A stretch of 64,000 bases of DNA from Chrysophaeum taylorii (lineage: Eukaryota; Sar; Pelagophyceae; Pelagomonadales; Pelagomonadaceae): contig JAQMWT010000577.1 of assembly GCA_029834535.1 (NCBI GenBank), forward strand, positions 43,485 to 107,484, written 5' to 3'. Every line of letters starts with the position of its first letter. Within the stretch, counting starts at the first letter, position 1. The position numbers were made by a program, and so were the translations under genes. Positions 1-64,000 of this stretch are shown here, in pieces. The notes beneath the pieces were generated by a model. The model worked only from the letters and a program-made list of their open reading frames with translations. It was not told the DNA's origin and did not search any database.

Positions 1-1971
1 CTTTTCGTCACAGAACAAATCCGCTTTGTTCGCTGCACGCTCACGGCCTACGCCATTGTCGAGAACGTCCCTCCAAACCCCCGAGCTCATCACGAGTACA
101 ACCAACTCGCCAAATGCTATCAGTGCTTAGGTTACGTCCGACACTCCGGTGTCGACAATGCCTCCGCTTTTGGCGACGTCATAAGCAAGGCCCGCTATCT
201 CGCTGTCTATGCGCGCCACCCGCTCACCGATTACAACCTCGAGAGAACCGCTTCTCCTTGGTTATTATCTCCTCCGAGCATGGTTCCACTTCTGGACCCC
301 AATCACACTATCCCCGACGATCTCTGGATCGCCAACCCCGCCCTTCGTGGCACCGTGCCCCGCTCCACCTTGGCTTATTACCAGCACAAGGCCACCTTTT
401 CCTACGCACCCGCCAACACCTCTAAACTCCTGATTTCCGAAAATGCCCGCATATGTCAAATGCTTGCACGCTTCACCAAGCACTTCACGAATCTAGGTCT
501 AGACGCCGATGGCACTCCCTATTCTACCATGACCAACATCTCCCGCCTCCTGGTTTTCGCATTGCTGCACAATCACTTGTCGCAACATCCAACTCTCTCC
601 GCTTGGAACACTCTCCGCTGTTTTCATGCCTTAGAGTCCCAATGTGCTTACCTTTTGGATGGAGCCATCACCGGCACCGTCGCTACTGCCGTCGCCTGCG
701 GCTACTTCCAGCGGGCCTCTCTCACCCTATATTCCAGGCCCCCTCCGATATTGGACTGTTCCCACCAACCCGCAGTCTTCTCCCCAACGCACGCCTGTTC
801 CCTGGATGTTCCCAAGGGCACCGCCTTTCTGGTCGTCGCCTACACCACCTCCTTGGCCGCCGCTCACAGCTGCTCGCCCCCCTCCACTTGGGTCTACATG
901 AATCGCTCGCATCCTGGCTTTGCCGCGATCGACTCACGAGGGCGAATTACTCTCGATGACCCCAAGGGACTCCTAATGTCCGAAGCACGTCCCGACTGCA
1001 GCGAATGCAAGCGCTGTCAATCGCATGTCACCTTTAGTCACAAGAACACTTCCTGGTCACAGGATGAACTCGCCTATGCTCCTGGCCAACATCTCCATAT
1101 GGTTGTATCATACCCGAGCATTACCAAGTGCTATGGTGGCTTTCGTTACATCATGCATTTTGTGTGTATTATCTCAGCACACAAATGGGTGTACTTCCTA
1201 AGGAAACTAGACGCGCAGGGCGTTCTGGCTGGCAACCTCTACGTGGTCAATGTGATTAAGGTCGAATTCGATGTAAATGTGAAAATCATCTCGTCCGATA
1301 CATTTTCAACCTTCCGCTCCGAAGCATTCCACCCGCTCAAGGTGCAACTCGGTATCCAGTTTCAAATCATTGGTCGCCACCTACACCAGCGGAACTTTGC
1401 CGAAAACATCATTAAGGAAAACACCCGAGGCACTGTAGTTCGCGTCCTCAACCCGCGCAGTGTCCGCATCGAAGGAAAGCCCATTGCCGCCGAGTATTAT
1501 CACCCATTTGCTCTGCTGCATAAGATCCAAGCCGACAATCATCAGCGCTCTCATGGACTGCCATCGCGCACAAGCATGACTTGCACCGTCCCCCGGCGCA
1601 TCATGTCACCCATGGCACCGCTCTTGAAGCTCCTTCCCTTTGGCGAACCTGTCACCTTTGTCTACCCTCAAAGTCACAAGCTGGAACCCTCCAGCGTCTC
1701 CGCCTCCTATCTCAACAGCAACAATTACGTCCCAAACCTCCCCGGCACGGACCGATTTATCCGTGATGTTCATAGCTCTATCCTGCTTGTACATCAGGGG
1801 CGATATGGAAAAATCGTCACCTCTAACGACTTCCACGTTGATGCAGACATGCCAGTCAACCGCAACACGGAGATCGAACGGATCAAAGCACTCACGCAGA
1901 CCCCAACAGAGGCACGACAAGAGGATCCGCTCCCAGCTATTAGCGAACAGCAAATGCCGGAAGCTACATAG
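1..1971 (+). pseudogene. Copia-B polyprotein part: C5-MTase C-terminal half, GAG-pre-integrase, integrase
   Basis: Frame 1 is open from the first base to the stop at 1969-1971. Residues near 18-24 read AIVENVPP (nt 52-75), which is motif VI of C5-cytosine methyltransferases. ISKARYLAVYA (about 181-213) fits motif VIII, STMTNISRLL (about 523-552) fits motif IX, and DGAITGTVATAVA (about 658-696) fits motif X. The catalytic PC motif would lie before the window. Next comes a GAG-pre-integrase region with CSECKRC (about 996-1016), then an integrase core with SSD (about 1290) and FAEN (about 1399). The position of the first catalytic Asp appears to read HMVVSYP without Asp. The MTase therefore precedes integrase, as in Copia-A. 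MTase assignment rests on motif spacing and is moderate; integrase is firmer. Confidence 0.75.
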
Positions 1972-2395
1972 GAATCGGAAAATGAGGGCGAGCCTCAAGA
2001 TGACGACCAGGATGACAAACCGGCGATGACGACGAGCACAAAGAACCGGAACCAACCTCCGCTGCTGATCCAAGTCCCGTCAGCGACGAGACACCTGAAC
2101 AGGATTTTTCGTTCCTCAACCGGCCACCTCCGCCGGATGGTAGCATTCCGATGCCCAAACGAAAGGATCGGCTAGAGGTTGTTCTCGGCGATTCCGGTTT
2201 TACCCCAGTTCTCGGGCATCGCAACCAGAGTGACAAACTCAAGGCAGATCGCAAGGACGAGCGCGGATTCCGCATTCCCAAGGATCAACTCTATATCGTG
2301 AAACGTGTCGACGATGGGAAACTTCCCACCAGGCGCATTATCGCTTCAGAGTACGGTCGCAACTGGAAATACCAGCAGGAGTAATCCACGGCTCG
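1972..2395 (+). pseudogene. Copia-B integrase C-terminal/linker region, frameshifted
   Basis: After the stop at 1971 the acidic linker continues in another frame and joins the ORF 2151-2384, which is basic and charged (KRKDRLEVVL, then a tail ending in YQQE). No catalytic motif is seen; in copia polyproteins this is the variable stretch between integrase and RT. A frameshift must lie between about 1930 and 2150. Assigned by position only. Confidence 0.5.
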
Positions 2396-2567
2396 CGCCA
2401 CAGCCAACATGTCCAGCACATTGATGTTCCTCATCAGTGTCAGCGCTCTGCACCAGGGCCATGCCGTCAGCATCGCATCTGATCTCAACATTAGAAGGGA
2501 TGCTAAGCCGCCAAATGATGTCCCGAAAGGATGTCTCCTAGCAAATACCACACAAGACTAAGGTATC

Positions 2568-3789
2568 ATGTGCGGCACTGCACTGGATCTGCAGAGAGAA
2601 ACCGACGCAGAACTCTTGTACGTCGACTTCCCAAGGAAGCCGTACCACTCATCTGTATTGGTCGACCACCTGGACAACGACAATTCTGTTCTCGAGAACT
2701 ATGTGTACCACGACGAACTGTCACCGGCAGAGTATTATGCGCATCAATGGAACCAAGAATTCTGTTGTATGAGCTCCTCTCTTTCATGGGGCATCTCGGC
2801 GCATCAGCACTACCACTTAGCTTCTCGTCACAGACATGCCTTCATGCACGATTCTGGCGAACTCGGACACCTCTTTCTGAGTCAAAGTGATCCGAATCAA
2901 GATATTCTCCAAGAAGTCATGGACTATGACTTGCAGCACATCGACCATGTCGTATTACAACTCGTGACCGCTGAATATATTGTCTATGAGCCCGAGAAGA
3001 TTAACTCAAAGGACTCAGCGAAGAAGATAAGTTAAAGCATATCGCTTCGATTCGCACAAAATTTGAAGGATTGTGCTCCAATGGTGTCTCTAAGCTTGAA
3101 CATTTACCGCCAGACCGTTCGTCTATCTCGACGAAGCTCGTGCTGAATATCAACTATTTCGCTGACGGCACCCCAGACCGCTATAAAGCTCGTCTAGTTG
3201 CCCGAGGTTTCCTGGCACGTGTAGGCATTGACTTTTATGCCACATCCTCACCAACCGCAATGCTTGCCACCAACCGGTTATTGCTCGCCATCGCTGTGAA
3301 GCATAAGCTCCCGGTCGCGCACGCGGACATTCCCCAGGCATGCATCCAATCGGCACTCGATCGCCCGGTATGTATTGACTTACCTCGAGGAATACCTGTC
3401 TCGCAAAACCTTATCCAGCAGATACAGAAGAACCACCCAGAGTCCAAGTTAGTTCTCCGACCCGCCAAGGCTCCCTATGGTCTCAAACTGTCGGCTTTGT
3501 TGTGGAATATTAAGCTTGACTCGTTTCTTCCACAACATGAGTTCGAACGCTCACAAGTCGACACTTGCCTCTATATCAGTTGGGATTGATCTATCAACAG
3601 ATGGGTTCTACTATCCGTCTCAGTCGATGACCTATTGATCACTGGTACCAACACTGCCAAAATTACATCTCTTCGCACCGCGCAGGAGAAGGAATATGGC
3701 AAAGGTACTTGGCATGATAACATCCGATCCTTCCTTGGTATCGATGTACACTACAATGTCTCCGCTGGTCACCTCACTATGAATGTAGC
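2568..3789 (+). pseudogene. Copia-B reverse transcriptase, N-terminal and palm part
   Basis: ORF 2568-3035 is a poorly conserved lead-in. ORF 3071-3589 is a clear copia RT: STKLVLNI, then the hallmark YKARLVARGF (about 3181-3210), followed by the AHADIPQA block and the APYGLKLSALLWN block. A TGA at 3587-3589 interrupts it. The catalytic box SVSVDDLLITG follows at about 3613-3645 in a shifted frame. Reading then runs through FLGIDVHYN to NVA at 3789, where Copia-A has inserted; it resumes at 16494. Dead by stop, frameshift and insertion. Confidence 0.88.
3785..3789. repeat. Target-site duplication GTAGC of Copia-A, left copy
   Basis: GTAGC directly precedes the left LTR; the same five bases directly follow the right LTR at 16494-16498. 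The duplication sits inside Copia-B RT codons and marks the exact integration site. Confidence 0.9.
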
Positions 3790-4202
3790 TGGAGAGATTT
3801 GACCCTCTTCGGGTACATGGTAGATACTGCGTGCAGTCTTAGGCGTGTACAGACCATTCCGCTTGTCACATGCTACTACACAAGGTAGGTTTTTAGGCCC
3901 TGACTCCCCAAGGACATACGGTCCCATAGAAGCGTTTACACTGACAACGAGGAACGAAGCCTCTTGTTAATTAAACAGAAAACCTCATACCTGACGGTAC
4001 GCACCTGAAGGCCTACTCCTCGTTGGAAGAGAACTTCAGACTAATGCTTCATAGTCATGAACAAATAATTGCGGAAGGGGTAAGGAAGGATGAAGCAGAG
4101 GGAAAGCCGTATTACGCGGAGAGAAAACCCTCAAGTAGAAGGAGTGGAAAAGAGGGAGTAAGGAATGCCAGTGTCGTACACATTATAGTGTAGCGCTATG
4201 GA
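3790..4202 (-). repeat. Copia-A 3' LTR
   Basis: 413-bp direct repeat of 16081-16493. On the plus strand it begins TGGAGAGATTTGACCC and ends GTAGCGCTATGGA. It is bordered inside by a minus-strand G-rich polypurine tract and outside by the GTAGC duplication. It should contain promoter and polyadenylation signals, but I do not identify them. Confidence 0.93.
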
Positions 4203-4212
4203 CCCCCTCAAC
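4203..4212 (-). other. Copia-A polypurine tract
   Basis: On the minus strand GTTGAGGGGG abuts the 3' LTR. This is the expected place and composition of the plus-strand DNA primer of an LTR retroelement, and it supports the LTR boundary chosen. Confidence 0.75.
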
Positions 4213-6036
4213 GTGAGGGAAAGGCTTTATGCGTTCCAGACGTTCTTGAGTGTGAAGCTTGTGTACGATACATGAGAGCATCGAAGAACTTAAACACAAA
4301 ACAACAACATAAATGATAAGGTAACATAACAATTAACATTAGGAGGAAGTTGGAAGTGCTTGTCACATTACGTAATGAATCAGCATCCACAACGTCAGAT
4401 GTGTGGTCCAACTCATCATCACTATTGTCTTCGAGTTTCTTTAATTCTGGAGAGGAAGTGTCATGATCTTCGAACTGGTCGTTAGTTGTAGTGTTGTTTG
4501 TAGTTGTCGCGTCGCAGAGATCGGCAAGTGGTGACATGACGGAAGACAAATAGGACATAGCCGCAGCAGGTGTTAGAGTATGCAGATCTGTTGCAGGAAT
4601 AACATGATCCTGTGCATCAGACATAGCAGTATGTAAGCCAGCAGCTGTATCTTCGATTATGTTTTGCTGTGTCTCCTCAAAAGTATTTGGAGGAGACTGT
4701 TCAACAGAAGTGATTAAGGATTTAGAAATCACATGAGCTAAGACAGCAAGGGTAGACAATGTAGCATCCTGGTGCATCTGGTAGCTGGAAAGCAAATTGT
4801 CCAAGAGTGACACGTGTTTTGTGTTCTCGGTCACTTGCGCGTTGAGAGCATCGTTAGCATTTTGAAGTTGAGTGATGGTTTCCAAAGCATCGGAGAGTCG
4901 TTGATCACGTTCTAAAGATCGCTTATCACTCTTGGCGATGTGCAAAGAAAGTGATTGTATTTCTTATCTTAAAAGTCGCAAAGTTTCATGCACATTGTCA
5001 GGAGGTACATCTGTAGTAGGTCCAACTTGTGCTTGTTTGACATTAGACAATTTAGTGTCCGAAAATGCGTATATTGTGGCAGAAGGATAGCCAACTTGGA
5101 TATGTACATTTTTGAAAGCAGTCTGATGCTCTGGGACTAACTTAATGAAGTAGTCCAACATTGGCGGTAACATCTCGTGAGAAGTATCATTAATCTGGCG
5201 TGAAACATCATTAACAAAACCTTCAATGAGAACAGCAAGCAACTCATCCGGGTTTGTAATAATGCAGACTTTATCTTCAACGGACTATAGTAATGACCAA
5301 GCCGTTACAATGATTTCGATATTAATGGTAGAAATATGAGGTAGCTGTAGCAAAAGGGGTGAGTGATCGTCTGGGTTAATTACTCTAGCAGAAGCGCCAA
5401 GGTTGTGAGTAGCCATGCATTTAATGAGCGCATCTTTGAGCAACTTATTTATTGGAATGGACTTTCCAAAGCGCAAGATGATGGCGCGCATGTGGGCTGC
5501 TGGGTCATTATGACACGGAAGATGAAACGAATGAAGACGATTTCTAGTTAATGCAGTCCCGTGTTGCGATAGATTGCACACAACGCAGGTCAAAAAGAAA
5601 ATTGGACGGGGCACATCGAAGCAGTACGTGGCATGTTGTGCTGATGACAAATGCTCTTCAATGATTTTAGTAATTTCGTCCGTTTTGACTTCGTCTTCAG
5701 TACAAATGGCGAGAGCAAGCGGCGTACCCGGTGCGTCCGTTTGATCGAAGCATTTAGTGCAAAGCACATGTCTTTGACAACTCCCTTAATTGGTGGGTAT
5801 CTATGCAAGCGAGTGCCTTCATTTAGCGGTACATTTGGTGCATTACGTATACGTTTGGTCTTTAAGCACAGGAGGGAGCTCAAGAAATGAAGATTATCAA
5901 CTTTATTGTTCTGTTGTGCGTCGGTGAGCAGCTGTTGGATAGCCTGGGACCAACATTGAAAATCTATAGGTGGTGGGAGGTGGAAGTTCGGTGGTTGAGT
6001 ACATAGCGAAAGAACGTTCCCAGACATCATCGCCAT
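4208..6036 (-). pseudogene. Copia-A third ORF, env-like membrane/coiled-coil protein (broken)
   Basis: About 1.8 kb lies between the RNase H stop and the 3' LTR. ORFs 5767-5285, 5242-4964 and 4945-4208 are in one frame, separated only by two in-frame stop codons, and a further upstream piece (6036-5590) joins by a frameshift. Together they give roughly 600 codons. The segment from about 4945 to 4800 has a heptad-like, Leu/Gln/Asn-rich pattern (ALETITQLQNANDALN) suggesting a coiled coil. Near the C-terminus a hydrophobic stretch (NFLLMLIVMLPYHLCCC, about 4345-4295) could span a membrane. A coiled coil plus membrane segment 3' of pol resembles the env-like ORF of Sirevirus copia elements. I recognise no sequence family; function is inference. 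Confidence 0.5.
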
Positions 6037-6424
6037 AACGTCGAATTTGCTGTGCTTTCACAAATAGTACTCTGCGGTTTTGACAGGAGTGTCAACATCA
6101 TGTCGAGTCGATCTTGACGTGGGGGTCACCGGTGTTTTAGTTCCTTGAGCAACAGAGTGATACGACGGTCGTTTACGGTTATTGGGAGAGCCAGTAGGAG
6201 CAAGTGCCGGATTCATAGCATTAAAGGGTGAGGATAGGGCAGATATTCACCCCGTCCACGATTCAATACTGAGTATCGTCGGCTCGCGGCGTCTTTATTC
6301 TTGGCTGGGTTCATCTTTTGTAAACATATACGGAGATCACATATTATGTTTTCAGCGAGCCGCAATTGCCGTTTCTGTGAGCGCTAGTTTAATGTCATTG
6401 CGGACATAGTAACAAGGGTAATGA
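6037..6424 (-). other. Spacer between Copia-A pol and ORF3
   Basis: About 390 bases with no convincing reading frame on the element's strand. It may hold the leader of ORF3. No repeat or RNA gene is seen. Confidence 0.4.
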
Positions 6425-7600
6425 TTAAATATCTTGTTGGGCTATGGGTTGTTGTAGACCAAGTAACGTGCGAAACCTAGCGAAGAGAGGAGCACCAAAG
6501 GGCTTAGTGAATCCGTCAGCGATATTTTTGGTGCCAGAAACATGGTGCAAGCGAATACGTCCTAGGTGAACATAGTCACGAATACGAAACCAGCGTGTGC
6601 TATTGGCTTTGGCTTTGGTTGCACTATCAGGCTTATTCGATAGGTGGATGGCAGAAGCAGAGTTTCCAAGTATAGGACTGTTGCGCATAAATGACATGTC
6701 TGAAGGGAGAGGGTTGTCATGAGCATCGTAATCTAATAATAAATCATTCCCTGGAGGTTGGCGAAGATAGTATTGCGGGTTTATAGCAAAAGCCATCTCC
6801 GTTAACAGTTTACGTAACCAGAGCACATCATCAGCACACATATTAAGGGCAATAAGCTCACTCTCATGCGTGGAAGTGGCTGTGATAGGTTGTAGTTTGG
6901 ACTTCCAAGTGATAAGGGAACCAAACAAAAAGATAGCATAACCAGTTGTAGATTTGCGGTTTAGTTCATAAGATGGTGCATTATCAGCGTCGACGAACGC
7001 GACCAGTGGATCAAAATTACCTGAATTCACTTGGTCTTTAGTGTGGTCCAACATAGTTGCCATATCGGTACGATTGCCGATGAGAGATCTAAGATGGTCC
7101 ATTAGAGCGGAAGAACCAGAGTAGTACCATAGTCGAAGATTGCGATTTTCTGGTTTGCGCAAATAGCGAAGTACTCCTGTTAATACCTGGACGTGCAGAT
7201 ATTCTGGATTGTGCATTCCTCGGGAACAGCGACTAAGGCTTTGTGATAAACCAGGGCGACAGGCCAACTGTACAAAAGTGAGCTTGCCGAGTAGGGTGGA
7301 GAAGGTGTGTTGGATGAACTTGTTCATATCAGAGGATGACTCTCCAGTTTTATATATAATTGAAGGAGACATAGGGGTTGATGTGGGACGTAACTGCGTT
7401 AAGATGGGATACTCTTCAAACAATGCATCAATCTTAGCTTGGCAATCAAGTGAGATGGAGCCATCAATAGAGCGCGTTATTCGCATACCTATGAGAGTAT
7501 GAACTTCTTCAATGTTTTCAACCGAATATTCTTTCTTTATTTCATGTTGGAATTCACGATGTAGACGTTCCGATATACAGATGATAACAACATCATCCAC
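6425..7600 (-). pseudogene. Copia-A reverse transcriptase C-terminal half and RNase H
   Basis: A 391-codon ORF beginning in the RT catalytic box (SVDDVVII when the preceding bases are read in this frame). It then carries the copia connection region (LIGMRITRS; LLGKLTFVQLACRPGLSQ; VLRYLRK) and RNase H: AFVDADNAPS, the STTGYAIFLFGSLITWKS block, and the HESELIALN block. It ends with the typical copia tail LHHVSGTKNIADGFTK. It overlaps the upstream ORF by about 60 bases in a different frame; a single frameshift at about 7600-7620 separates the two RT halves. No special slippery signal was identified, so decay is the simpler reading. Confidence 0.92.
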
Positions 7601-10116
7601 TGATAGAGTACAAAGTAAAACGTAGTGTCGGATTGGACTTTGGCATAGATGCAGGTATATGTTCGAAAGCGTCGATAGCCTAGCGTGTCGAAGAAACCAT
7701 TTATGGTTTGGTTCCAGAGTGCAGGACGCTGTCGTAATCCATAAAGAGATTCGAGTAGTTTTGGGAGACGTCGTCCTTGGTACTTTGCATCTTCAGGATC
7801 CAGTAGGTGAATACCTTGTGGCAATTTAACGTAGACATGAGATGCTATGGGGGCTTGAACAAACGCATTAGGCACATCTATGTGATAGACGGGAAGTCGG
7901 AGGTGGGCTGCGAGCGCCAGAACACGACGGATACCAGTGAGCTGTGCCATTGGACTAAATGTGTTAAAAAAGTCGGTGCCCAGGGAGGCTAAGAATTCCT
8001 GTAGGACCAATCTCGCTTTATGTTTGATGTATTCGCCGGCAGCGTTGGTCTTTATACGTAATACCAGCCGGGTATCAATAGGCTTGGAATTGGCCATAGG
8101 CAACGATAGCTTGAAACATCCAAATTGGACAATCTCAAAAATCTCCTTGGAAATTGCGGAGATATAAGCCTTGCGATCAGCATCGGAAAGACCTTTTAGG
8201 CAGGTCGACTCATACTCATCAATCTCGATATCATTGGCTTGAATTTTATATTCGTCCGGACCAACAGTGCTGGGATCTTGATCTTGAGTGAGGTGGATGA
8301 TCGTGTAAGAATCAGCAATAGCGTTAGTGTGATCGGGATCGGGAGTTTCGACAAGTTGAAGAACAAGTAGAGGATCATCTCCAAGGTGTGTATCAATGTA
8401 ATGAGATTGCACAGTGATGTAGTCTTCGATGGCGGAGAGGTGGGGTTCTGAAGCGCCATAAGAAGCATCGTTATGATCCAAAAAAGAATGGGGCGTGAGC
8501 AAAGCGCAAGCATATTGAGCAGGAGGAACTTGAAAAGCTTGAACGTGTTCAGAAATGAGATGAACAAGAGCGCGAGGAAGGTGAAGGTCCGAGAGGCTGA
8601 AGTCGTCGAGGAGATGAACGGGAGTGGCATCCGCCGACGGATGGTTAAGGCTACTATGACACATGCCAGAAGAAGACTGGAATAGCGCTTGATGAACATG
8701 ATGATGATGAGTTTGTGTAAATTCCCCCTCTGGAGGCATAGCCATCCAGTGGAAGCCATGAGCAGCATGAAGGGAGTGGAGGGTGGGGTCGCAGAAGGTA
8801 ATGTACTGCTTGGAGAGGTCATACTTGAAATCAGCAAGCGCACCACCAGCTTGTTTATAAGCGGCAACGGTGGGCGAAGCAATTCGAGTGAGGACTGCAT
8901 TGAGATTAGTATTGCGACGAGGCTGAGGGTCATAAGGACCGCGGGTGAGACGAAGGACGTCTTGTGAGTATAGGGGCCGATCGGAAGGTAAAATATGGAA
9001 AGTATTGGATGACTCTTCAAATGCCGGAGGTGTGGCGACAGAAGCAGCGGGAGCACAGGCTGGAACTGGAGTAGGAGCGTGTGCGGAAGGTGAATTATGC
9101 CCCCTCTCGTGTTCAGTGTCGTTGGACATAGCACTCCCCATCTGCAACGCATCACTGGGGGTGCTGTGAACAGAAAAGGGTATTTCAGGCAAAGGTGCGG
9201 GTGGGGAATGTTGTTCGTAATCGGGAGGAGAATGGGAAGTTAGATGAGGGAAGGTAAGTTTAGAGGAGACACGGACTTGGCCGTTTTCAGGGTTGAGGAC
9301 AACATCGGATAAGTGGTTAACATAGGGTTTAACTAGAGGGTTAATAACATTAGCGCCACATAAGTATATGTAGGGACGACATCGAGGTTCATATTTGTGA
9401 AATTCATTAGACTCCAGAGGCAAATAACAAACAGAACCAAAAGGTTTGAGGTAGTCTTGTTGTGGAAAAATACATTGGTCCAACAAGACTTGTTGGGGAC
9501 TTAGCACTTTATTATAAATGCGTTCGAGAGACACATTAGGGAGGAGATTGTACGACTGAATGGCATGTATAACAGCCCATGGATAGTGTGGGGCCGGATT
9601 GGTTAGGGGGTGACTTTTATATGATACATTAAGCATATGCCGGAGTCGTGTAGACGCAGCAGTTGCAATATGACCCACAGCGGCTTCTACTTCGTGATTA
9701 AAAACATGCAAGTAGGGAGGGAAAGCAGACATATTAATGCCATGTTCAACACGGAAGGGAGTGGTAATGTGTTGAGCTAAATAGGGTTTAAAAGAATCAC
9801 AATAAATTTGCTTTAATTGTACATGAACATAGGTGGAGCAAAAATTACGAACAAACTCGAGGTCATTACAAAATTCGCTAGCATTAGTAGTACGACAAAA
9901 GTACACCAACCAAAATTTAGAGATGGGACATTTGAAGACCAAAATGTGTCGAAAAGAGCCCCATTCGGAGAGGACAGATACATAGCCACCATCGCATGCC
10001 CAGGCTTCACCAGGTTGAAAGATTTTTCCGAAGGAAGATTGCGTGGTAAGATGATGTGGATGTGGAAAACTTTTTTTATGTAAGGTACAATCCACACAAA
10101 ATTTACGGTAGGGCAC
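7537..10116 (-). pseudogene. Copia-A integrase and reverse transcriptase N-terminal half
   Basis: An 859-codon ORF. The N-terminus has FCVDCTLHK, the end of the zinc-binding region. The integrase core keeps all three acidic positions: Asp in WACDGG, Asp in IYCDSFKP, and Glu in FNHEVEAAV. A long Pro/Ser/His-rich linker follows, then copia RT: SKPIDTRLVLRIK, the HKARLVLQEF block, the HIDVPNAFVQA block, and SLYGLRQRPALWNQ. The ORF drifts out of frame just before the YVDD box. Integrase residues look intact, so this part decayed recently. It would integrate element cDNA into the genome and, with the next ORF, reverse-transcribe it. Confidence 0.92.
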
Positions 10117-10656
10117 ATCTGAAGGGTGATGACCCGGGCTGGCAATGACCTGAACGCCCTTTATAGGCTGAGAGTCGCCAGAATGGTGCGTGTTGTGGAA
10201 ATTTGTTGCACGTCTTTGGGCATCTCAAAAAGCCAGAGTGCCTCTGGCATGTACTTTTCTATCGAAAGAAGCGTGTTTCTCGTGTAACTGTCTTGGAGTT
10301 ATGAGAGGGGTGTGTTGTGGTTTTGTTTTGGGGATAGATGGTTCATCTAAGGATGAAATGTTAGACATGAATACATGTGCTACTGAATCGAGATGGAACG
10401 AAGGAAGTTCTTGGTTAGATGAGAGTTTGTCACAACATTGGAATACTTTATTATAAATATATAGCATTGTGATAGAACTCAGGTTTAGTATTAAAGATGA
10501 GTCAGTTTGAAATATGTTAGTGAAAAAGGTTGACCTATACTTCTTGGTTATAGAAGTATGATCAGGGTCGAAAGATGGTGATAACGTTAATTTACGTAAA
10601 TCATAGACAAGCTGACACAAGTGTGTATAAATTACATGATAGGTCCCAGCCGGAAT
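10117..10656 (-). pseudogene. Copia-A segment between MTase and integrase (GAG-pre-integrase)
   Basis: ORF 10620-10225 plus a short stretch reaching the integrase ORF after a stop. The start, VIPAGTYHVIY (about 10655-10620), is the continuation of MTase motif X beyond the SINE. The C-terminal part (RQLHEKHASFDRK) fits a GAG-pre-integrase His motif that precedes the FCVDC Cys motif. The rest is not recognised. Confidence 0.55.
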
Positions 10657-11023
10657 AACTAACTAACTAACTTCAGACCTCTCCCGGGCATGGGAGCCAG
10701 GCCGGGCCGACAGGTGCCAGTCCGGAATCACGGGCCTGTAGACGAGGAGCGCCGAAAGGTCGGCCGGCGGAGAGTGACCATCAAGCTTGTCGCCATGCGA
10801 CGAGGAGACCGCGATGTGACTGACAACCAACTCGTCGATAACCTTCCGTCTTCGCCCCCCGGCCATACCCCGTCCCACTGCGAAAGTTCCGGCTGCCAAC
10901 CGGCCCGCCCGGGAGGCGAATAGGTGCCAACCTACGCCGGGAGGGCGGATGCCCTCGCAAGGCTCAGGATTCATGAGGCACCGTCCTCCATCGCAACCGC
11001 AGTCGGCGATCAGGGTAAGGGTA
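10657..11023 (-). mobile_element. SINE-1, inside the Copia-A MTase gene
   Basis: A roughly 365-bp repeat, minus orientation, with its (GTTA)n tail at 10657-10672 followed inward by the shared LINE-like tail (CTCTCCCGGGCATGGGAGCC). Four further copies in this window match it at length. Its 5' end includes the CCCTTACCCTGATCGCC region, so it is among the longest copies. I find no clear flanking duplication, which suggests a small rearrangement on insertion. It splits codons of MTase motif X. No convincing pol III A and B boxes were identified by eye. Confidence 0.85.
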
Positions 11024-12698
11024 TTAGCATTAGCAATCATGTCACAGCAAAGGTCCGGGGACAAAGACAACAGAAAATTAATTTGGTACGCTGTGAAGTT
11101 ATGGGCGCGTGCCAATTCGCGAGTTGAGTAGTGTCGGATGCGATCAAGTCGTGGATCGTAAAGGATCATGCTCGCAAATCCACGAATGGTCGGGGTTGGT
11201 GTATGGATAGAATGAACTTTAGCACCCGTCTTTCTATCGCTAGATGTAATAAAGCCAAGGTACCTGCTTTGAGACAGATGCATGTCACTTAGAGAAAAAT
11301 TTTATCGATGAATTCAACGTGGTTGGAGTCGGAGTAAAAGACAAAAGAATCCTGAAGCACAGGTGAAGCGAAGGAAACAAGGGTTTGCACGAGGCGACGG
11401 GTATCTTGGGTTTCACTATTATGGTGGTAAGCTTGACACAACCAAAGAAAGCCGGCAACAGGATCGAGAGTAGCAGTCTTATCGATCCCTGATTCGTGTG
11501 TTCGAAAGGTGTAAGTCTCACCAAATGAATTAATGTGAGCCTGGTATTTAGAAGAATGATTAGTAACTGCAACGTCTCCACCTGTATGTCTTCCGCCTGT
11601 TATGTCGATAATGGAGGCGCTTGGGGATTTATTTAGAAATAACCTGTGCGATAGTTGGTTAGATTCGACAGTTGTAATGCGAAAAGACACAGGTAAGGTG
11701 GTAGAGTTTGGGAACAAGCGTCCCATAATATTATAGAGGATGACAAAGGCTTCGAGTTCAATAGGCGAAGTCATACACGTGAGGGGCTTTCTTGAATTCG
11801 TTGAGAATCCCAAGCGAAAGTTAGAAGTGCCCTCCATTTCGTCTTGGAATGGGTGTTCGGTCGTTTTATAGGAATGTAACCGGAGGAACAGCATGGTTAG
11901 TGTTTCTAGCTCGGTAAAAGTTAGGCGAACGGGCCCCGTGCGACTGAAGGTGCTGTAAGTTTTAGATATGGAAACAACTGGTACGTCAGAGAAGACTTGA
12001 GTCCATGGTTCCTCGAGTAGTAGCTTTCGACTTATGGTATTAGCGTGATCCGCAATATCCAGGAAGGAAGTGACTCTTTTATTGGGCCAAGAAGGCAAGT
12101 CTAGCGGGCCGGTGTTAAACTTGCAGGCGACGAGGATCCATCTTCGCCGTGCTTGGTAATCTCCACACAAGTAACAAGGAAAGCGATCACAAATGTCCAC
12201 TGTATAATGCATTGCAGTGAAAATCAGGCTAGCAACTCGTATATGATCTTCATATGATGCAGAGTGTGGTGGTGTCATCTCCATAAAAAGAACAAGGGGC
12301 TTTAAAAGCTCGAGTACACTTAGAGCACTTGGGAACAAAGAATCCTCCATATCTCGCTCGGAAGTTGATATAGATCTCCCATTAATTATGTTGCGATTAG
12401 TGCATGGGGAAGTCAATTCCACAATGTCAGAGTAGTATCTTGCACGTTCAGCGTGTGATGCTCGATGCAGATAGGTTAGGAACTTTGGTATGGACGGAAA
12501 CACTTCAATGGAATTGCCAAACCGTCTTCGAAGCATATGCGTAAGATTCTCATCGCTTTCAACAAGAACTTTAACGTTAATGTTGATTCGCAAGTCATTG
12601 GACGCGCAAGCCAATAATGCAGGAGTGGACAACCCCGAACAAAGTAGAGTTACAGTAGGTACTCGTGAACTAGAATTGGTCGTTACAGTATGAAGCAA
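11024..12698 (-). pseudogene. Copia-A C5-cytosine DNA methyltransferase
   Basis: The ORF 12698-11289 carries methyltransferase motifs in canonical order. Motif I-like VTLLCSGLSTPALL (residues 16-29) is followed by VESDEN for motif II (46-51). Motif IV is TSPCTNRN, with the catalytic Cys at about residue 99. Motif VI is LFMEMTPP, Glu about 140. Motif VIII is YQARRRWILVA, a perfect QxRxR at 182-186. A long target-recognition region follows. A 1-nt loss near 11287 (compare the copy ending at the right edge) moves the rest into frame 11283-11040: TPTPTI, motif IX HYSTRELAR, and motif X DMIANA, which SINE-1 splits from its continuation VIPAGTYHVIY. All signature residues are present, so the parent enzyme was probably active. 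It lies between protease and integrase. Confidence 0.85.
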
Positions 12699-12705
12699 GC
12701 TTGGG

Positions 12706-13416
12706 TTAAACTTGCGTCACACATTGGATGAGAAATGCTTGCGAACATAACTGTGAGTGTATGGACTCCAAAATGGTTTTAAGCCGCGGGACGTATATTA
12801 CACGTTCTAGGAGTTTGGAGTATAGTTTTAGCATCTCACGTTGTTCGTTGAAAGCACTTAATTTGAACTGCAAAGAGCGTAGTTCCATCTTTCGAGCTTT
12901 AGCTTGCTGTAGCGAATAGATTGGGAGCGTAGGTAATAAGTTGTTTAACCAAAACAAACTAATCTTGACGTTGTCGTCAATCTTGCTCTGGACAGATGAT
13001 TGTCCTTTAAACTCATCTCCATGGAGATGTATACCAAGCTTATCTTCTCCCCATTGAGTCATGCTGGTGATATGCAAATCAGGATCGTTATGTTGATTTT
13101 GTTTAGGTAGGAAAAGATCGACATATAGCTTGACGTATCCAACGTTAGGATGCATTGGGAGAGCAGGAATAACAGTTCTTATTATCATTGCGTGGGTGAT
13201 ACTTTGAGTGTCTGTAGCAGTCTGGATGGCGGGTGACAATGATTCGGGCAGTTTAACGATATGTAGTGGATCACCATCACGTTTAAAGTTAACCACGTGC
13301 TGAGAAGCACACGTGTCTGCATACCCAGGTGTAGTCATTAATGGTAACTTGTACTCATTGTACAATCCAAGCATTGTTGCATAACACGCATGTGTAGAGC
13401 TTTGACCAAAAAACAT
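12706..13416 (-). CDS. Copia-A aspartic protease region
   Basis: A 236-codon ORF with YADTCASQHVVNF (residues about 36-48), which aligns with the copia protease signature D-S/T-G-A-S-x-H; the Gly is replaced by Cys. The same DTCAS is present in the second family copy at about 61905-61945, so the Cys is a family feature rather than a random lesion. The domain should cleave the polyprotein. The ORF ends just upstream of the MTase ORF in a different frame, so a frameshift or a designed break separates them. A basic, helical C-terminal segment follows the protease fold. Family assignment is by motif and position. Confidence 0.7.
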   Translation of the reverse strand: MFFGQSSTHACYATMLGLYNEYKLPLMTTPGYADTCASQHVVNFKRDGDPLHIVKLPESLSPAIQTATDTQSITHAMIIRTVIPALPMHPNVGYVKLYVDLFLPKQNQHNDPDLHITSMTQWGEDKLGIHLHGDEFKGQSSVQSKIDDNVKISLFWLNNLLPTLPIYSLQQAKARKMELRSLQFKLSAFNEQREMLKLYSKLLERVIYVPRLKTILESIHSQLCSQAFLIQCVTQV

Positions 13417-13477
13417 ACTGAGTCATAAAACTTTGCGTTTGCTCGGAAGGTACAACGACAAGTGTAAAACCATTGTT

Positions 13478-14425
13478 TCATTTCGGAAGCAACCTCGGGG
13501 GGTCTGTACCATCCTCGTTTTCCCCGTCATGTTGATTATTGGGAGGCTCAGAATGAAGAGAGGTTTCCCGTGCTTGACGACGAACGATAGCATTCTGTGC
13601 TTTAGCATTTTTGTGCTGCAATAATGGTTGAGGAATATTATCGATTTCATCATCTTTGATATAAAGAAAAGTGTGAAACATCTTTTCCGTTTCAGCAGTC
13701 CCCCCCTGCTCCGCATCACTGGGGGGTGCTGCAGGAGCAGAAGTTTCAACTTGATCCTTTTCTTCTACGATGTGAGACTCTTTATCTGTCTCTAGAAGGT
13801 TCGAGATGGTGTTGGACATTGTATCAACGCGTGATAGGTATAGGTGAACTTGGGTGGCTTCCTCAGGATCAAGAGTCTGTGTAGAGGCTTGAGAAGCAGT
13901 GGTCCAGAGGGTACTTAGTAGACTTTCCATTTCTTCTTGTACTATTTTAGAGTCGGTAGAGGGATTGGGATTCGCTTCCTGTAATTTACCAAACAGATGG
14001 CGAAGACGGTCAACTTGATAAGTAGCCCGATCCATTAATGACATGTTGGAGCGTGAGTTGCGGTTAGTGGATTGTGAATAGACAGGACGGTCAAAACTGG
14101 TGCCTTTAACATTATAATTTGAAGGTGGACGATAGTAAGACGTGTCTCGAGGTGAGATGATAGACGCTTTGTCTTTAGCGTTACGAAGTTGATGAGCGTT
14201 GTAACCAGACTGTCCAGCGACAGTAGCTAACAGTGAGTAGGCATTGTTTAGCGAGTCGTGGAACTGATGAATGGTGTCCATCAATAATACTTTAGGTGGT
14301 TTAGTGGCGGTAGTACCAGGGATATGCGGGATCCACGATGCGGGTTTATGCAAGCGTCGGCTAGTTGAGAGCTTCGTCTCGTTATTTATCTTTAACCAGA
14401 ACTCCAGTTCATTCAGCGAGGGCAT
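13478..14425 (-). CDS. Copia-A gag, C-terminal part
   Basis: A 315-codon ORF; its first codons come from the SINE-2 junction, and true gag sequence begins at about LEFWLKIN (14405). It includes TYQVDRLRHLFGKLQ, a helical stretch, and an acidic, Glu/Thr-rich middle; no CCHC zinc knuckle is visible. The same protein is encoded at 60830-61790 by the second family copy. It probably forms the particle shell. Frame changes before the protease ORF. Confidence 0.65.
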   Translation of the reverse strand: MPSLNELEFWLKINNETKLSTSRRLHKPASWIPHIPGTTATKPPKVLLMDTIHQFHDSLNNAYSLLATVAGQSGYNAHQLRNAKDKASIISPRDTSYYRPPSNYNVKGTSFDRPVYSQSTNRNSRSNMSLMDRATYQVDRLRHLFGKLQEANPNPSTDSKIVQEEMESLLSTLWTTASQASTQTLDPEEATQVHLYLSRVDTMSNTISNLLETDKESHIVEEKDQVETSAPAAPPSDAEQGGTAETEKMFHTFLYIKDDEIDNIPQPLLQHKNAKAQNAIVRRQARETSLHSEPPNNQHDGENEDGTDPPRLLPK

Positions 14426-14723
14426 CCGCCCTCCCGGCGTAGGTTGGCACCTATTCGCCTCCCGGGCGGGCCGGTTGGCAGCCGGAACATTCGCAGTGGG
14501 ACGGGGTATGGCTGGGGGGCGAAGACGGAAGGTTATCGACGAGTTGGTTGTCAGTCACATCGCGGTCTCCTCGTCGCATGGCGACAAGCTTGATGGTCAC
14601 TCTCCGCCGGCCGACCTTTCGGCGCTCCTCGTCTACAGGCCCGTGTTTCCGGACTGGCCCCTGTCGGTCCGGCCTGGCTCCCATGCTCGGGAGAGGTCTG
14701 AAGTTAGTTAGTTCGTTAGTTCA
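14409..14723 (+). mobile_element. SINE-2, inside Copia-A gag
   Basis: A 5'-truncated copy beginning at about GCGAGGGCATCCGCC (14416) and ending in a GTTA-type tail (14702-14722). An 11-bp duplication AGAACTCCAGT flanks it at 14398-14408 and 14724-14734. The duplicated bases encode part of gag (LEF-W), so the insertion disrupts gag. Confidence 0.9.
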
Positions 14724-15003
14724 AGAACTCCAGTAACGGGCGAACGTCACTAGGATCCACTAGCCTTAAAACATCAGGATCGCGAGTCGAGTTCTTCCCC
14801 GAGCGTGTTTCGTAAAGTTTACACCATTCTAATAACGATTGTGCATAGCGCTCGTGGTCAGAGGGGTTGGCATATATACGACAAATCTCCTCGTGAGCCT
14901 CGAGTGCGATTATAGAATCGTTAAACTGAATTGATGCTTCGATTTGCCCCGGTTTGAAAAGCAAGAAGTTGTTCGACAAATACATGAGCGTACCAATTAA
15001 CAT
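14716..15003 (-). pseudogene. Copia-A gag, middle part
   Basis: A 95-codon ORF with EASIQFND and RPLLEF, matched by the second family copy at 60575-60823. It leads into SINE-2, whose removal would join it to the ORF 14425-13478. Upstream it connects to ORF 15830-15135 through about 130 bases with a frame break. No enzymatic motif. Confidence 0.6.
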
Positions 15004-15134
15004 TTAGAGACATTCGATTAAATTGTGATTTAAGTTCAGTGACATCCGTACAAGATACATTTCGTAGTAGTGATAGGATAATAACATCATGGCTCTGGTT
15101 TTATTGGGATGCGCAGTTTGCGAATAGATTTCCT

Positions 15135-15830
15135 TCAGTTGAGTCCCATGGCGAGGGCAGGGCGATCTTGAGATTCTAGATTGAAAAACGTGTACAAGAA
15201 CCCCGCGTAGGTCTCGCAGTGTTTAATCCAGTCGGCATTAGAAAGACCTGAGAAGGATATATTGGTTAGTGACGAATCATACACAATTGATTTAGGGAAT
15301 TGGGTGTTTAAATGGGTAAGTACAAGTTCAACATCCTCGTTTAATTCGGGACGAACAAGATTAAATGACTCTTGAAAGAAAAGTCGCTCAAGATCATTGC
15401 GCGCATCGGCGGATAGTTGATGAGTGTGGTTTACATGCCAAGTCCTTAAATGTTCGGGCAGGGCATCTTCATTAGGCAGATGTAGTTCGTTGATTTTCTC
15501 AGACTTCCATCGAGGGAAAATGATATTAACTTCGTGTTCGAGAAGTTGGTTGTACTCCGGGGCATTCCGCGTGTAAGCTTCATGTGAATCGAAGCGAAAC
15601 AACGCATCCGCATATGGGCTTGTCGTGTGGCTACGAAGCATTTCGAGCTGCAGACTGACCTTAGTTGAATTGTCTTTGAAACGAAGTCCTTCACTAAGCT
15701 TATCAACGGGAATTTGTTCCTGCTTATAGATATCTGTCGTCGATAATGATTTGGGTTTTGACATTGTTAAGAATGGATTAATTCTCGAGCAGTCAGTCTC
15801 TTGTTGGGGGAATGGGAGGAAAAAACCCAC
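15135..15830 (-). CDS. Copia-A gag, N-terminal part
   Basis: A 231-codon ORF, the first after the 5' LTR and primer-binding site, as expected for gag. The likely internal start is MSKPKSLSTT (about 15764), just after a shorter lead-in from 15830. It is rich in charged helical segments and has no zinc finger. The 5' gag of the Copia-B-like element at 57760 is unrelated, which supports two distinct copia families. Confidence 0.6.
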   Translation of the reverse strand: MGFFLPFPQQETDCSRINPFLTMSKPKSLSTTDIYKQEQIPVDKLSEGLRFKDNSTKVSLQLEMLRSHTTSPYADALFRFDSHEAYTRNAPEYNQLLEHEVNIIFPRWKSEKINELHLPNEDALPEHLRTWHVNHTHQLSADARNDLERLFFQESFNLVRPELNEDVELVLTHLNTQFPKSIVYDSSLTNISFSGLSNADWIKHCETYAGFLYTFFNLESQDRPALAMGLN

Positions 15831-16066
15831 GCAAGTTCCCGCGGCTTGTGTAGGGAAAATTTAATTTTATTAGTTATGTGAGTGCACATGGCCGGTGGCC
15901 GACCCAACTCGGTCACAAACCAACTTAACTGGTGGGCACGCACCGTCACACAACAGATATGTACAGTAGACCACCACCAATACATTGTCGCGTTGTACTC
16001 GTGATCAGGCGTAAACTGATCACTCCATTATACGCACAACACAGTTGGGCGGACTCACCTACGCAT
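15831..16066 (-). other. Copia-A untranslated leader
   Basis: About 235 bases between primer-binding site and gag. It should contain the packaging signal, but nothing specific is recognised. Confidence 0.5.
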
Positions 16067-16080
16067 CTGGGCCCATAACC
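16067..16080 (-). other. Copia-A primer-binding site, half initiator tRNA-Met type
   Basis: Minus strand reads GGTTATGGGCCCAG immediately after the 5' LTR. It is complementary to the anticodon arm (CUGGGCCCAUAACC) of eukaryotic initiator tRNA-Met. Priming from the anticodon region, using a half tRNA, is known for the Drosophila copia element. The same 14 bases are at 57448-57461. Confidence 0.85.
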
Positions 16081-16493
16081 TGGAGAGATTTGACCCTCTT
16101 CGGGTACATGGTAGAGACGGCGTGCAGTCTTAGGCGTGTACAGACCATTCCGCTTGTCACATGCTACTACACAAGGTAGGGATTTAGGCCCTAACTCCTC
16201 AAGGACATTAGGTCCCATAGAAGCGTTTACACTGACAACGAGGAACGAAGCCTCTTGTTAATTAAACAGAAAACCCCATACCTGACGGTACGCACCTGGA
16301 GGCCTACTCCTTGTTGGAAGAGAACTTCAGACTAATGCTTCATAGTCATGAATAAATAATTGCGGAAGGGGTAAGGAAGGAGGAAGCAGAGGGAAAGCCG
16401 TATTACGCGGAGAGAAAACCCTCAAGTATAAGGAGTGGAAAAGAGGGAGTAAGGAATGTCAGTGTCGTACACATTATAGTGTAGCGCTCTGGA
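16081..16493 (-). repeat. Copia-A 5' LTR
   Basis: 413 bp, direct repeat of 3790-4202 with only scattered substitutions. It is followed on the plus strand by the second copy of GTAGC (16494-16498). Confidence 0.93.
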
Positions 16494-17520
16494 GTAGCAG
16501 CGAAGATAAACAAGATGCACGCCGAGCATAAGCTCAACCTCCATACTATGGACGTCCCCTACTCGGACATTCTCATTCAAAAGCCCTCTGCTAAGCTTCT
16601 CTCTGACTTGGCTCCTACTTCGGAAATATTACGCGAACATTTTCCTCACTACTGTGGTACTAGTATTTACTTGTCTGTCACATGTCGCCCAGATATTACT
16701 ACTTTGTGCAACAAGTGCTGCAAGGGTATGCACAACCCTGAGCAGACCCACCTTTTCTCTTGTATGTTTTACTTCGCTATTTGAAGGGTACTCCGAATGA
16801 TTCTCTCGACTATTCATCCGACAGCCCCTATATTACGCCCTTTATTCTGCATCTGATCAGCACCTATTCTGAACTGCATCATCTTCGTTCGCCCATTATT
16901 TGTTTTACTGATGCCAGTTTCGCTGACCGTTCTGACCCTCGCTTAAGATCTCATTCTGGTTCATGTATTTTCGTCTTTGGCAATCTCGTATTCTGGTCTA
17001 GCAAACGCCAAACTCTTGCTGCCAAAAGCACCATGGAAGCTGAACTCATCGCCGGCAGCGCAGCCGCTGATGAATGTCAGTGGTTCTACAAAATCTTCTC
17101 CTCTCACCCTTATTTATTTTCACGTGATCAGCCTCACGCTATTCCCCTGCTTATTGATAACGCTAGCGCACTACATGTAGCTAATCACCCTAAAGTCAGT
17201 GCCCCCTCTCGTCATATCAACATACGAGAATTTCGCATTCGTGACTACCAAGCCAACTCGGTCATTCGCCCTCTCTTGTGTCCTACTCACTACGTATCGC
17301 TGATCACTTTCCAAGCTTCTTCCACGCAATTTATTCCACAAGTTCAAAAACGCCTACGGTGTTCACTCTACATCCTCTTCACCCCCATCCCATCAAGTTG
17401 CTCTTTCTGCTACTCTTCCACCGTACGACTCTGTCCAGTGCACTCTCTATGTTCTTGTCGATGGCAAGACGCTTTCTGCTTAGTTTGATCCACATTTCGC
17501 TCACCGAGTTCAATCTGTGA
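16494..17520 (+). pseudogene. Copia-B RT C-terminal end and RNase H
   Basis: Continuation of the RT interrupted at 3789. ORF 16515-16784 has the copia connection block (TCRPDITTLCNK, KGMHNPEQTH). A frameshift near 16765 leads to ORF 16760-17488 with LRYLKGTP and RNase H blocks CFTDASFADRSDP, SGSCIFVFGNLVFWSSKR and MEAELIAGS, then ASALHVANHP and IRDYQ. The tail is frameshifted again after about 17250. Decayed. Confidence 0.88.
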
Positions 17521-17525
17521 GGGCG

Positions 17526-18324: not shown

Positions 18325-18353
18325 GGACTCCCTGGTGAGAATACGAGCTGCCC

Positions 18354-18716: not shown

Positions 18717-18731
18717 GTAAGTCTTCTTTCG

Positions 18732-31417: not shown

Positions 31418-31419
31418 CG

Positions 31420-45900: not shown

Positions 45901-46014
45901 GTTGCCCTTTTCGAAGGCGGTGGCAACCGTCTGCGATATTCCCCGCGATAATTCCCGTAAAATTTTCGTACTTTCATTCTCAATGTCCGCCCTACCCTCA
46001 TTCTCCGTATCGAC

Positions 46015-47312: not shown

Positions 47313-47317
47313 CAGAG

Positions 47318-48350
47318 GGTGCTGATCCAGATTTCGAAATATGCGACTGCAACGTCAGAATCTCTCTCTCTCCAAGGCTGATGACGTTATGCTGACTAAG
47401 TTTTTCTACAAAGCTAGAGGAAAAGTGTCAGTGATGATGAAAGTGAAGATTTTCATACCTTGAGCGAAGAATGGGTGATGAGCGCGAGTGGGACGGCCGG
47501 AACGTGCCCCCGGCGGTCTTGTGTTCAAAGCGTTGAGCGCGCCACTGCGCGGCCAGAAACTCGGGGTGAAAGCACGGAAAGTCTTGGCTTTTTCGGTGAG
47601 GAGGCTGTGCTTGACGTCCCTGAAGTCATCTCGCGGACTACGCCGTCGAAGTTGTTGGTCAAATCGAACGTCAAGACGAAACTCACGCTCAAGGCCGACG
47701 GAAGTGTTCCCGCCTCTACACAGCGTTGGCGATCAACCCGATCCTGTGCTGCTGTGCTACGAAGATACCTCCGTGAGCTTCAGGAGCCAGCTTTGGTGGT
47801 TCGGCAAAATTCATGAGTACAAGCCAAGAGCGCGAGTTTACAATTACGACGTTCTATGGGACAACACCGCCCTCGGCAACAGTGACTCAAACTCGACGGC
47901 TACGTCGACGACCCTCAATGCCCGATGGTCGCGGCCGGATGCTGGTGTTATCTGAAGAGAAGCGTCACTCCTCCACAGCGAGGCCGCCCTTCTACTGACA
48001 ACGAGAACGACCGCCCTCTTTCTCAACGCCGCATCGACGATGACCTCGACGACGTCGATGGCATCTTGGTTCGACCTTACGAAGTGCATTGTTGTCAATC
48101 CCAACCCCCGCACAACACCGGCTCCAACACCGACACCAGGTGTATGGACGTAAATACCGACACCAACGGAGCCTCGTTGTGTGGGCCGCACCCGCGGACC
48201 CTTACGACATCATTTCGAACACTTTTGACCGCACCCGCCATGCATCTCGAAAATCTCCTCCCTCGTTGCCGGTAATTACTAAGGTAATGGAAACTACCGG
48301 CAATTTCCGGTATTTACCACCCTCTCTGTCTGCATTACCGGCAATGTAGG
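47318..48350. other. Decayed unrecognised sequence right of Gypsy-B
   Basis: Continuation of the pre-insertion locus. Plus strand near 47393-47425 has AAGTTTTTCTACAAAGCTAG, an inverted match to 28386-28404. Three short plus-strand frames overlap at 47460-47960; one contains LWWFGKIHEYKPRARVYNYD, which looks like a folded beta-rich segment. An AT-rich palindromic patch (ACCGGCAATTTCCGGTATTT) is at about 48296. No family recognised; probably an old mobile gene. Confidence 0.4.
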
Positions 48351-62517: not shown

Positions 62518-62544
62518 CGCAAGGTTACCACGCGCTTACTCCAT

Positions 62545-64000
62545 ACAGTATCTACGTCTCCAAGTTCACGAACTCCCACTGTAACTCTACTCTGTTCCGG
62601 GATGTCCACTCCTGCCTTCTTGGCTTGCGCTTCCAATGACTTGCAAATCAACATCAACGTTAAAGTTCTTGTTGAGAGCGACGAAAATCTCACGCACATG
62701 CTACGAAAACGTTTTGGTAATTCCATCGAAGTTTTCCCATCACTACCCAAGTTTCTTACATATCTACATCGAGCATCGGACACTGAACGTGCAAGATATT
62801 ACCTGATATAGTGGAATTGACATCACCATGCACCAACCGCAACAAAATCAATGGGAGATCCATTTCAACTTTCGAGCGTGATATGGACGACTCCTTGTTT
62901 CCAAGTGCTCTAAGTGTACTTGAGCTTTTAAAGCCCCTTGTTCTTTTCATGGAAATGACGCCACCACACTCCGTATCGTATGAAGATCATATACGAGTTG
63001 CTAATCTCATCTTCTCTACGATGCACTATACGGGGGATATATGTGACCGCTTTCCATGCTATCTGTGTGGAGATTATCAAGCCAGAGAAAGATGGATCCT
63101 CGTTGCGCGCAAATATAATACCGGCCATCTAGATTTACTTTCCTGGCCTAACAAACGAGTCACTTCATTCCTGGACATTGCAGATCACGCTAACTCCATC
63201 AGTCGCAACTTAATAGTCCACGAACCTTGGACGCAGGTCTTCCCTGACATGCCATTCGTGTCTACTCCCAAAACTTACGGGAACTTCAGTCGCACAGGAT
63301 CCGTTCGCTTAACAGTTACTGAGCTCGAAACTTTAACCATGCTGTTTCTTCGTCTGCACTCAAACAAAACAGTCGAACATCCAAGTCAAGATGAAATGGA
63401 GGGCATTTCTAACTTCCGCTTAGGATTCTTGACTAATTCAAGGAAGCCCCTTGCTTGTATGAGATCTCCTATTGAACTCAAAGCTATTGTGTTCCTCTAT
63501 AACATAATGGGACGCTTATTCCCAAAATCCACCACATTACCTGTGTCCTTTCGTGTTACAACTATCGAATCTAACCAACCATCTCACAGGTTATTCTCAA
63601 ATAAATCTTCTACTTCCTCCATCATTTACATCACTGGTGGAAGACACACAGGTGGAGACATTATAGATTCCAACTCCTCTTCTAAATACCAGGTACACAT
63701 AAATGCATTTGGCGAAACCTACATCTTCCAAACCCATGATACCGGAATCGACAAGACTACTTCTCTTACTCCTGTTACCGGTTTTCTTTGGTTATGTCAA
63801 GCCTACACTCATAATAATGAAAATCAAGACACGCGTCGTCTAGTACAAACACTGGTTTCTTATACTTCACATGTGCTTCACGATTCTTTCATTTTCTACC
63901 CTCAGGAAAATCGTCTGGAATTTGTCGATAAAATTTTTGCTTTAAGTGACAAAAACACTAACTTGGTCAAAATCATTTCTATATGATTCATCCCATCTTC
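62545..64000 (+). pseudogene. Copia-A2 C5-cytosine DNA methyltransferase (partial)
   Basis: Motif I TLLCSGMSTPAFLACAS (about 62580-62630), VESDENLTHML, then a 1-nt frameshift near 62805. ORF 62811-63986 continues with motif IV ELTSPCTNRN (Cys about 62834), motif VI LFMEMTPP (about 62943), motif VIII DYQARERWILVA (about 63074), where Glu replaces Arg before ERW, so QxRxR becomes QARER and still fits. The long target-recognition region runs to the window end, with a TGA at 63984-63986 where Copia-A has Gly. Motifs IX and X lie beyond the window. Confidence 0.85.

Follow-up and report, generated by a model that had tools for sequence, protein, structure and literature searches.

Retrotransposons carrying DNA methyltransferases (DNMTs) have already been published (de Mendoza 2018, PMC5890265). 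In the charophyte Klebsormidium nitens, the Ty3/gypsy element KnitGypsy-Dnmt3 bears a DNMT domain in its Pol open reading frame (ORF), for which conservation of key residues and purifying selection were reported, and in another algal genome the DNMTs borne by retrotransposons, SymbioDIRS-Dnmt3 and SymbioLINE-Dnmt, number in the hundreds; two SymbioDIRS enzymes methylate CG de novo in yeast, the LINE enzyme belongs to an orphan DNMT lineage, and Symbiodinium Copia elements are stated to be free of any DNMT domain (PMC5890265). The window analysed here (the whole 64-kb stretch of DNA presented above, G000:C577:43485-107484, which reaches the contig end) comes from the genome of Chrysophaeum taylorii (70.8 Mb, 697 contigs) and contains six long terminal repeat (LTR) elements plus one gypsy fragment. 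A C5-cytosine methyltransferase (MTase) domain was recognised in five of the six, among Ty1/copia as well as Ty3/gypsy elements, and three divergent families carried it: Copia-A, Copia-B and Gypsy, the last represented by Gypsy-A and Gypsy-D. The preliminary description of this DNA had placed an MTase in nearly every LTR element of the window, which agrees with this count, the sixth element having lost the domain by deletion.

The gypsy elements of the window resemble KnitGypsy-Dnmt3 in superfamily and in the location of the domain in Pol; the Klebsormidium enzyme is, however, of DNMT3 type and from a charophyte, whereas neither the gypsy nor the Copia-B MTase matched a DNMT3 chain in the PDB at E ≤ 1, which is a weak test. 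The abundance of the domains recalls SymbioDIRS-Dnmt3 and SymbioLINE-Dnmt, although these belong to the DIRS and LINE classes and not to LTR copia or gypsy elements (PMC5890265). DIRS elements with a Dam-like adenine methyltransferase, cited in the same paper, are also retroelements with a DNA methyltransferase, but the adenine enzyme is called structurally unrelated in that paper. For copia-borne DNMTs, a literature search with preprints and most subscription papers outside its reach found, beside the 2018 paper, only one sentence of 2025, which names LTR Copia for DNMT3 (PMC12344493); it shares with our elements the combination of Copia and DNMT and differs in stating the DNMT3 class, gives no detail, and credits the 2018 paper, whose own account is of Gypsy. 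The precedent in dinoflagellates and charophytes invoked in the preliminary description was thus borne out by PMC5890265, with Copia added by PMC12344493. What seems new here, as far as that search reached, is the presence of copia and gypsy carriers in one genome, by which the dinoflagellate and charophyte cases are apparently extended to one more host, together with divergent copia-borne enzymes. C5 methylation is a classic weapon against transposons; in this genome the enzyme is carried by each of the two major LTR superfamilies.

Matches to the Pfam profile PF00145 (curated cutoff, 22 bits) were divided. The Gypsy-D MTase (36.1 bits) and a relative of Copia-B elsewhere in the genome, L004 (38.6 bits), exceeded the cutoff, whereas the window copy of the Gypsy-A MTase remained below it (17.3 bits, E 0.0033) and the window piece of Copia-B, Copia-A and Copia-A2 gave no match at E ≤ 10. 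Profile comparison by hhalign with ten reference C5-MTases (Dcm, eight phage or archaeal-virus enzymes and the host DNMT2) gave probabilities of 93.3% for Copia-A (E 2.8e-7), 95.7% for Copia-B (E 9.2e-9) and 94.3% for Gypsy (E 1e-7), against 0.3, 2.0 and 0.1%, respectively, for the reversed profiles and 0.1-0.3% for a reverse transcriptase (RT) control. Motifs were in register in these family-to-reference alignments; the alignment of Copia-A with Copia-A2 displayed, in order, TVTLLCSG, an acidic motif II, DIxExTxPC, EMTPP and GDYQARER, blocks which we take to be motifs I, II, IV, VI and VIII. The motif IV catalytic Cys (PC) was present in every family (TSPC, LPCQ and SPPC) and was kept in 30/30 copies of Copia-A, 30/30 of Gypsy-D and all seven Copia-B rows covering the site. 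The motif VI Glu was kept in 28/30 Copia-A copies (EMT) and 29/30 Gypsy-D copies (EQ), Copia-B having ENV, and the motif VIII Arg was kept in all three families. Two outside homologs of the Copia-A MTase were found, the MMETSP transcriptome protein P0001 (E 1.4e-78; 39% identical over 76% of the domain; PPC at motif IV) and P0002, encoded on a 9.6-kb ENA contig (E 8.6e-49; APCQ).

Several results on these domains count against the explanation favoured below. The motif VI Asn occurred only in Copia-B, being replaced in Copia-A and gypsy, and motif VIII, complete in Copia-A (QARER), was changed from QxRxR to a K-x-R form in Copia-B and reduced to RxR in gypsy with loss of the Gln. Among PDB sequences the Copia-A profile retrieved no C5-MTase (best E 0.49, unrelated) and P0002 retrieved nothing at E ≤ 10, while the top matches of gypsy and Copia-B were C5-MTases but weak (E 0.021 and 0.017); AlphaFold models were too poor to use (mean pLDDT 33.1 for the Copia-A MTase and 32.4 for that of Gypsy-D). 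The view that the missing Pfam match of Copia-A refutes the finding was considered and rejected on the outside homologs, the motif order and the hhalign results. The domains are not chance resemblances, since the genome contains many copies of each of their families. Profiles and motifs taken together indicated that the window domains are, with near certainty, of C5-MTase type, and they agree with the earlier claim of such domains inside both Ty1/copia and Ty3/gypsy elements.

Superfamily assignment relied on an RVT_2 match in Copia-A (E 1.3e-29), with the order of protease (PR), integrase (INT) and RNase H (RH) read by eye, and on the RT-RH-INT order of the window gypsies, with Pfam matches. 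Pfam thus supported the RT of Copia-A and the RT, RNase H and integrase of gypsy; the proteases and the integrase, RT and RNase H of Copia-B were recognised by motif and eye. In each family the MTase lay, by eye, directly after the protease, before the integrase in copia and before the RT in gypsy.

Across the genome, 90 of 1280 candidates were scored for the Copia-A MTase and gave at least 95 matches; the corresponding lower bounds were 126 matches for Gypsy-D (from 118 of 903 candidates), 79 for Copia-B (from 68 of 830) and 145 for Gypsy-A (from 145 of 1000). Since some matches are pieces of a single copy, they represent a slightly smaller number of copies. Among the matches listed, the MTase lay in open frames of up to 3067 aa (Gypsy-A), 1952 aa (Copia-B), 1815 aa (Gypsy-D) and 1464 aa (Copia-A). 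Ratios of nonsynonymous to synonymous divergence (dN/dS) were obtained for Copia-A and Gypsy-D. Between the Copia-A and Copia-A2 copies of the window, a pair not chosen by score, dN/dS was 0.120 for the MTase (385 codons), as compared to 0.089 for the protease, 0.106 for gag and 1.53 for a frame-shifted null. In the 30 best copies of each family the median was 0.096 for Copia-A (434 of 435 pairs) and 0.241 for Gypsy-D (414 of 435 pairs), after dropping pairs with dS ≤ 0.02 or ≤ 150 codons; as membership of these sets depended on protein score, both medians are biased towards low values. The Copia-A MTase is therefore under purifying selection, like gag and protease: selection keeps the domain in the family where an unbiased test was possible, and this points to a marking by the elements of their own DNA.

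The MTase of the window's Copia-A did not match the Copia-B copies by BLASTP (best E 0.28), and the comparison of the Copia-A and Copia-B profiles was weak (19.8%, E 0.0012). The outside homologs connected the two families: scores against four Copia-B copies were 44.7-50.1 bits for P0002 and 34.7-38.1 bits for P0001, and P0002 shuffled 200 times reached at most 25.4 bits against L004. A wider Copia-A profile recovered the same two proteins and none further, the whole Gypsy-D ORF found no homolog at E ≤ 0.001 among 8000 candidates scored, and no relative appeared in viral contigs with Copia-A, Copia-B or Gypsy-D queries. In a tree of the core, Copia-A and Copia-B were joined at 0.988 and the gypsy enzyme grouped with the host DNMT2 at 0.854 on very long branches; this tree is deep, contains no DNMT3 and names neither donors nor substrates. 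Judged by the alignments through P0001 and P0002, the Copia-A and Copia-B MTases are homologous, and the copia side thus looks like one capture. The Gypsy-A and Gypsy-D MTases were about 36% identical, with SPPC and the Glu kept in both. No similarity between copia and gypsy MTases was detected by profile comparison or BLASTP, which suggests separate captures, one for copia (Copia-A and Copia-B) and one for gypsy (Gypsy-A and Gypsy-D). The separate captures proposed in the preliminary description hence held for copia against gypsy but not within copia. A single capture common to every family was considered and rejected as regards copia against gypsy, as no similarity was found, although a very deep common descent may exist.

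At least 57 places matching PF00145 were found in the genome (123 of 474 candidates scored): two host genes, 33 Copia-B places (29 by overlap with Copia-B matches and four read directly, in L003, L005, L008 and L010) and 22 without assignment. One host gene encodes a DNMT2 (E 3.9e-39 to a PDB DNMT2 chain). The other, L002 (G000:C621), is DNMT5-like, with a single 2086-aa frame, an SNF2 match and a match at 3e-143 to PDB 7r76, a chain named Rad8 in its entry and presumably the Cryptococcus Dnmt5. DNMT5 of Cryptococcus maintains methylation and does not start it (PMC9246332, PMC10538959), and the SNF2 match kept by the host frame differs from dinoflagellate DNMT5, which is said to have lost SNF2 (PMC12344493); together with the antenna-type match of an LHC gene given below, it argues weakly that the host is neither a charophyte nor a dinoflagellate. 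PF12047, searched for DNMT1, gave no match, but its control also matched nowhere, so that the absence of DNMT1 is not proven.

These data can be accommodated if two LTR retrotransposon lineages each took up a C5-MTase domain, which became fixed in Pol directly after the protease and produced the orders GAG-PR-MTase-INT-RT-RH in Ty1/copia and GAG-PR-MTase-RT-RH-INT in Ty3/gypsy. The protease would release the MTase into the virus-like particle together with the RT, and the enzyme would methylate cytosines of the newly made DNA of the element or of its integrated copy. The methylated copy would then enter a host whose DNMT5 could maintain the mark, and this mark would make the cDNA look like host DNA or moderate its insertion. 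The preliminary description had likewise suggested that such an enzyme might mark cDNA, mimic host methylation or shape host epigenetics. The yeast assay of the DIRS enzymes provides the analogy on which self-methylation is favoured, and we rate the explanation as a whole, from two captures to methylation of the element's own new DNA, slightly above even. Other observations speak against it or are neutral. CpG observed/expected ratios were 0.94-1.20 in the elements and 0.96 in the ATG11 gene of the window, without depletion. There was no clear CpG-specific excess of C/T differences among Gypsy-D and Copia-A copies, third-position values in Gypsy-D being 0.111 before G and 0.106 before T, both about twice those before A and C (0.047 and 0.050), and those in Copia-A 0.385 before G vs. 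0.274-0.327 elsewhere. A gypsy copy without MTase persists in the window, and the KnitGypsy and LINE enzymes had no activity in yeast, a result called inconclusive in that paper (PMC5890265).

The lack of CpG depletion would also suit an RNA methyltransferase acting on the element's genomic RNA or, as in the case of DNMT2, on its tRNA primer, and helping packaging, priming or RNA stability; RNA methylation was raised by de Mendoza et al. for the LINE enzyme (PMC5890265), and the gypsy enzyme grouped with the host DNMT2, albeit with the modest value and long branches mentioned above. We consider this unlikely, as the copia enzymes fall apart from DNMT2 in the tree, its depth does not allow substrates to be placed, and no motif specific to RNA binding or to DNMT2 was recognised. 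The non-canonical residues in motif VI and/or VIII of each family and the failure of AlphaFold to give a confident fold could instead reflect a catalytically idle domain, kept in Pol for a structural or nucleic-acid-binding role; conservation of the Cys in all 30 copies of both counted families and of the Glu in nearly all, and of catalytic residues in two gypsy families as distant as Gypsy-A and Gypsy-D, makes this quite improbable. Action in trans on host DNA, silencing rival elements or host genes or supplying a de novo mark for DNMT5 to maintain, is very improbable, even though the recognised host genes among the PF00145 places were DNMT2 and a DNMT5 whose Cryptococcus counterpart only maintains (PMC9246332) and many other places were Copia-B, since 22 of the 57 had no assignment and the exon-by-exon search could miss a host DNMT3 or DNMT6. 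Methylation by the elements of their own new DNA thus stays the preferred explanation. Its furthest extension, in which DNMT5, the host's only recognised DNA-type MTase, copies new 5-methylcytosine written by the copia and gypsy enzymes, so that the methylome is seeded by parasites, is highly doubtful; nevertheless, the elements might help set host methylation, and retroelement MTases beside a host DNMT5 make it testable where organisms that seem to have maintenance only obtain new methylation.

Table 1. Position of the elements and domains in the window (+, forward strand; -, reverse strand; TSD, target-site duplication)
Feature	Position	Strand	Remarks
Copia-B MTase, C-terminal part	1..660 (end approximate)	+	Motif VI IVENVPP, motif VIII-like FGDVISKARY, then downstream region
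Copia-B pol up to the Copia-A insertion, with MTase followed by integrase-like and RT regions	1..3788	+	ORFs by eye
Copia-B RNase H and 3' terminal repeat, downstream of nested Copia-A	16742..17721	+	RNase H by eye
Copia-A element	3790..16493	-	LTRs 3789-4202 and 16080-16493 (96.1%); 5-bp TSD GTAGC
Copia-A protease region	12709..13422	-	DTCAS motif, by eye
Copia-A MTase ORF, 475 aa	11292..12716	-	Core motifs I, II, IV, VI, VIII at ~12042-12659
Copia-A integrase/RT	7540..10224	-	RVT_2 E 1.3e-29
Gypsy-A element: gag, PR-like, MTase, RT, RH, INT	18022..27789	-	3' LTR ~18022-18324
Gypsy-A MTase, N-terminal part	22864..23652	-	Motifs I, IV SPPC, VI EQV, VIII; PF00145 17.3 bits
Gypsy-D element	29675..39358	+	LTRs 29675-30010 and 39023-39358 (95.6%); TG...CA ends; 4-bp TSD CAGG
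Gypsy-D MTase, between PR-like region and RT	34167..35189	+	PF00145 36.1 bits
Gypsy-D RT, RNase H, integrase	35577..38984	+	Pfam
Gypsy-A2, copy without PR and MTase	39550..47318	-	In-frame internal deletion
Copia-A2 MTase ORF	62787..63983	+	Element cut by contig end
Gypsy 3' fragment left of Copia-A2, with LTR-like and adjoining pol sequence	56721-57264

The elements of the window are partly nested or truncated (Table 1). Copia-A lies inside Copia-B, between its RT and RNase H, and Copia-B itself extends from a terminal repeat left of the window (beginning at L071:355) to position 17721, its 3' repeat (17528-17721) being 92.8% identical to L071:355-548. The Copia-B MTase, inside an open 935-aa frame, is cut by the window start, motifs I-IV lying just to the left, in L071. 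The Gypsy-A MTase is frameshifted before motifs IX/X, the C-terminal motifs being found in another frame (22482-22991), and no 5' LTR was found for Gypsy-A. The Copia-A2 MTase frame has no motif I in the same frame. Positions 22569-25233 of Gypsy-A have no counterpart in the Gypsy-A2 copy, protease and MTase having gone in one deletion of ~2.7 kb; this copy is possibly a non-autonomous derivative, and a 730-aa open frame spans its deletion junction.

A short repeat of about 300-365 bp was present in five copies (10653-11015, 14414-14723, 21480-21841, 41801-42110 and 48845-49156), four of them inside LTR elements, including two in opposite orientation within Copia-A, and with apparent short flanking duplications at some; it may be a non-autonomous element with frequent insertion into LTR elements. 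A host-type gene (49201-51912) encodes an ATG17-like domain and an ATG11 domain within a single open frame of 904 aa. In the genome as a whole a pattern search for rRNA gave no match. There were 84 matches to light-harvesting complex (LHC) proteins, gene pieces included, which mark the host as a photosynthetic alga, and the best PDB matches of one LHC gene were antenna chains such as iFCPI-3 and VCPI, names that we take to denote the red-lineage type.

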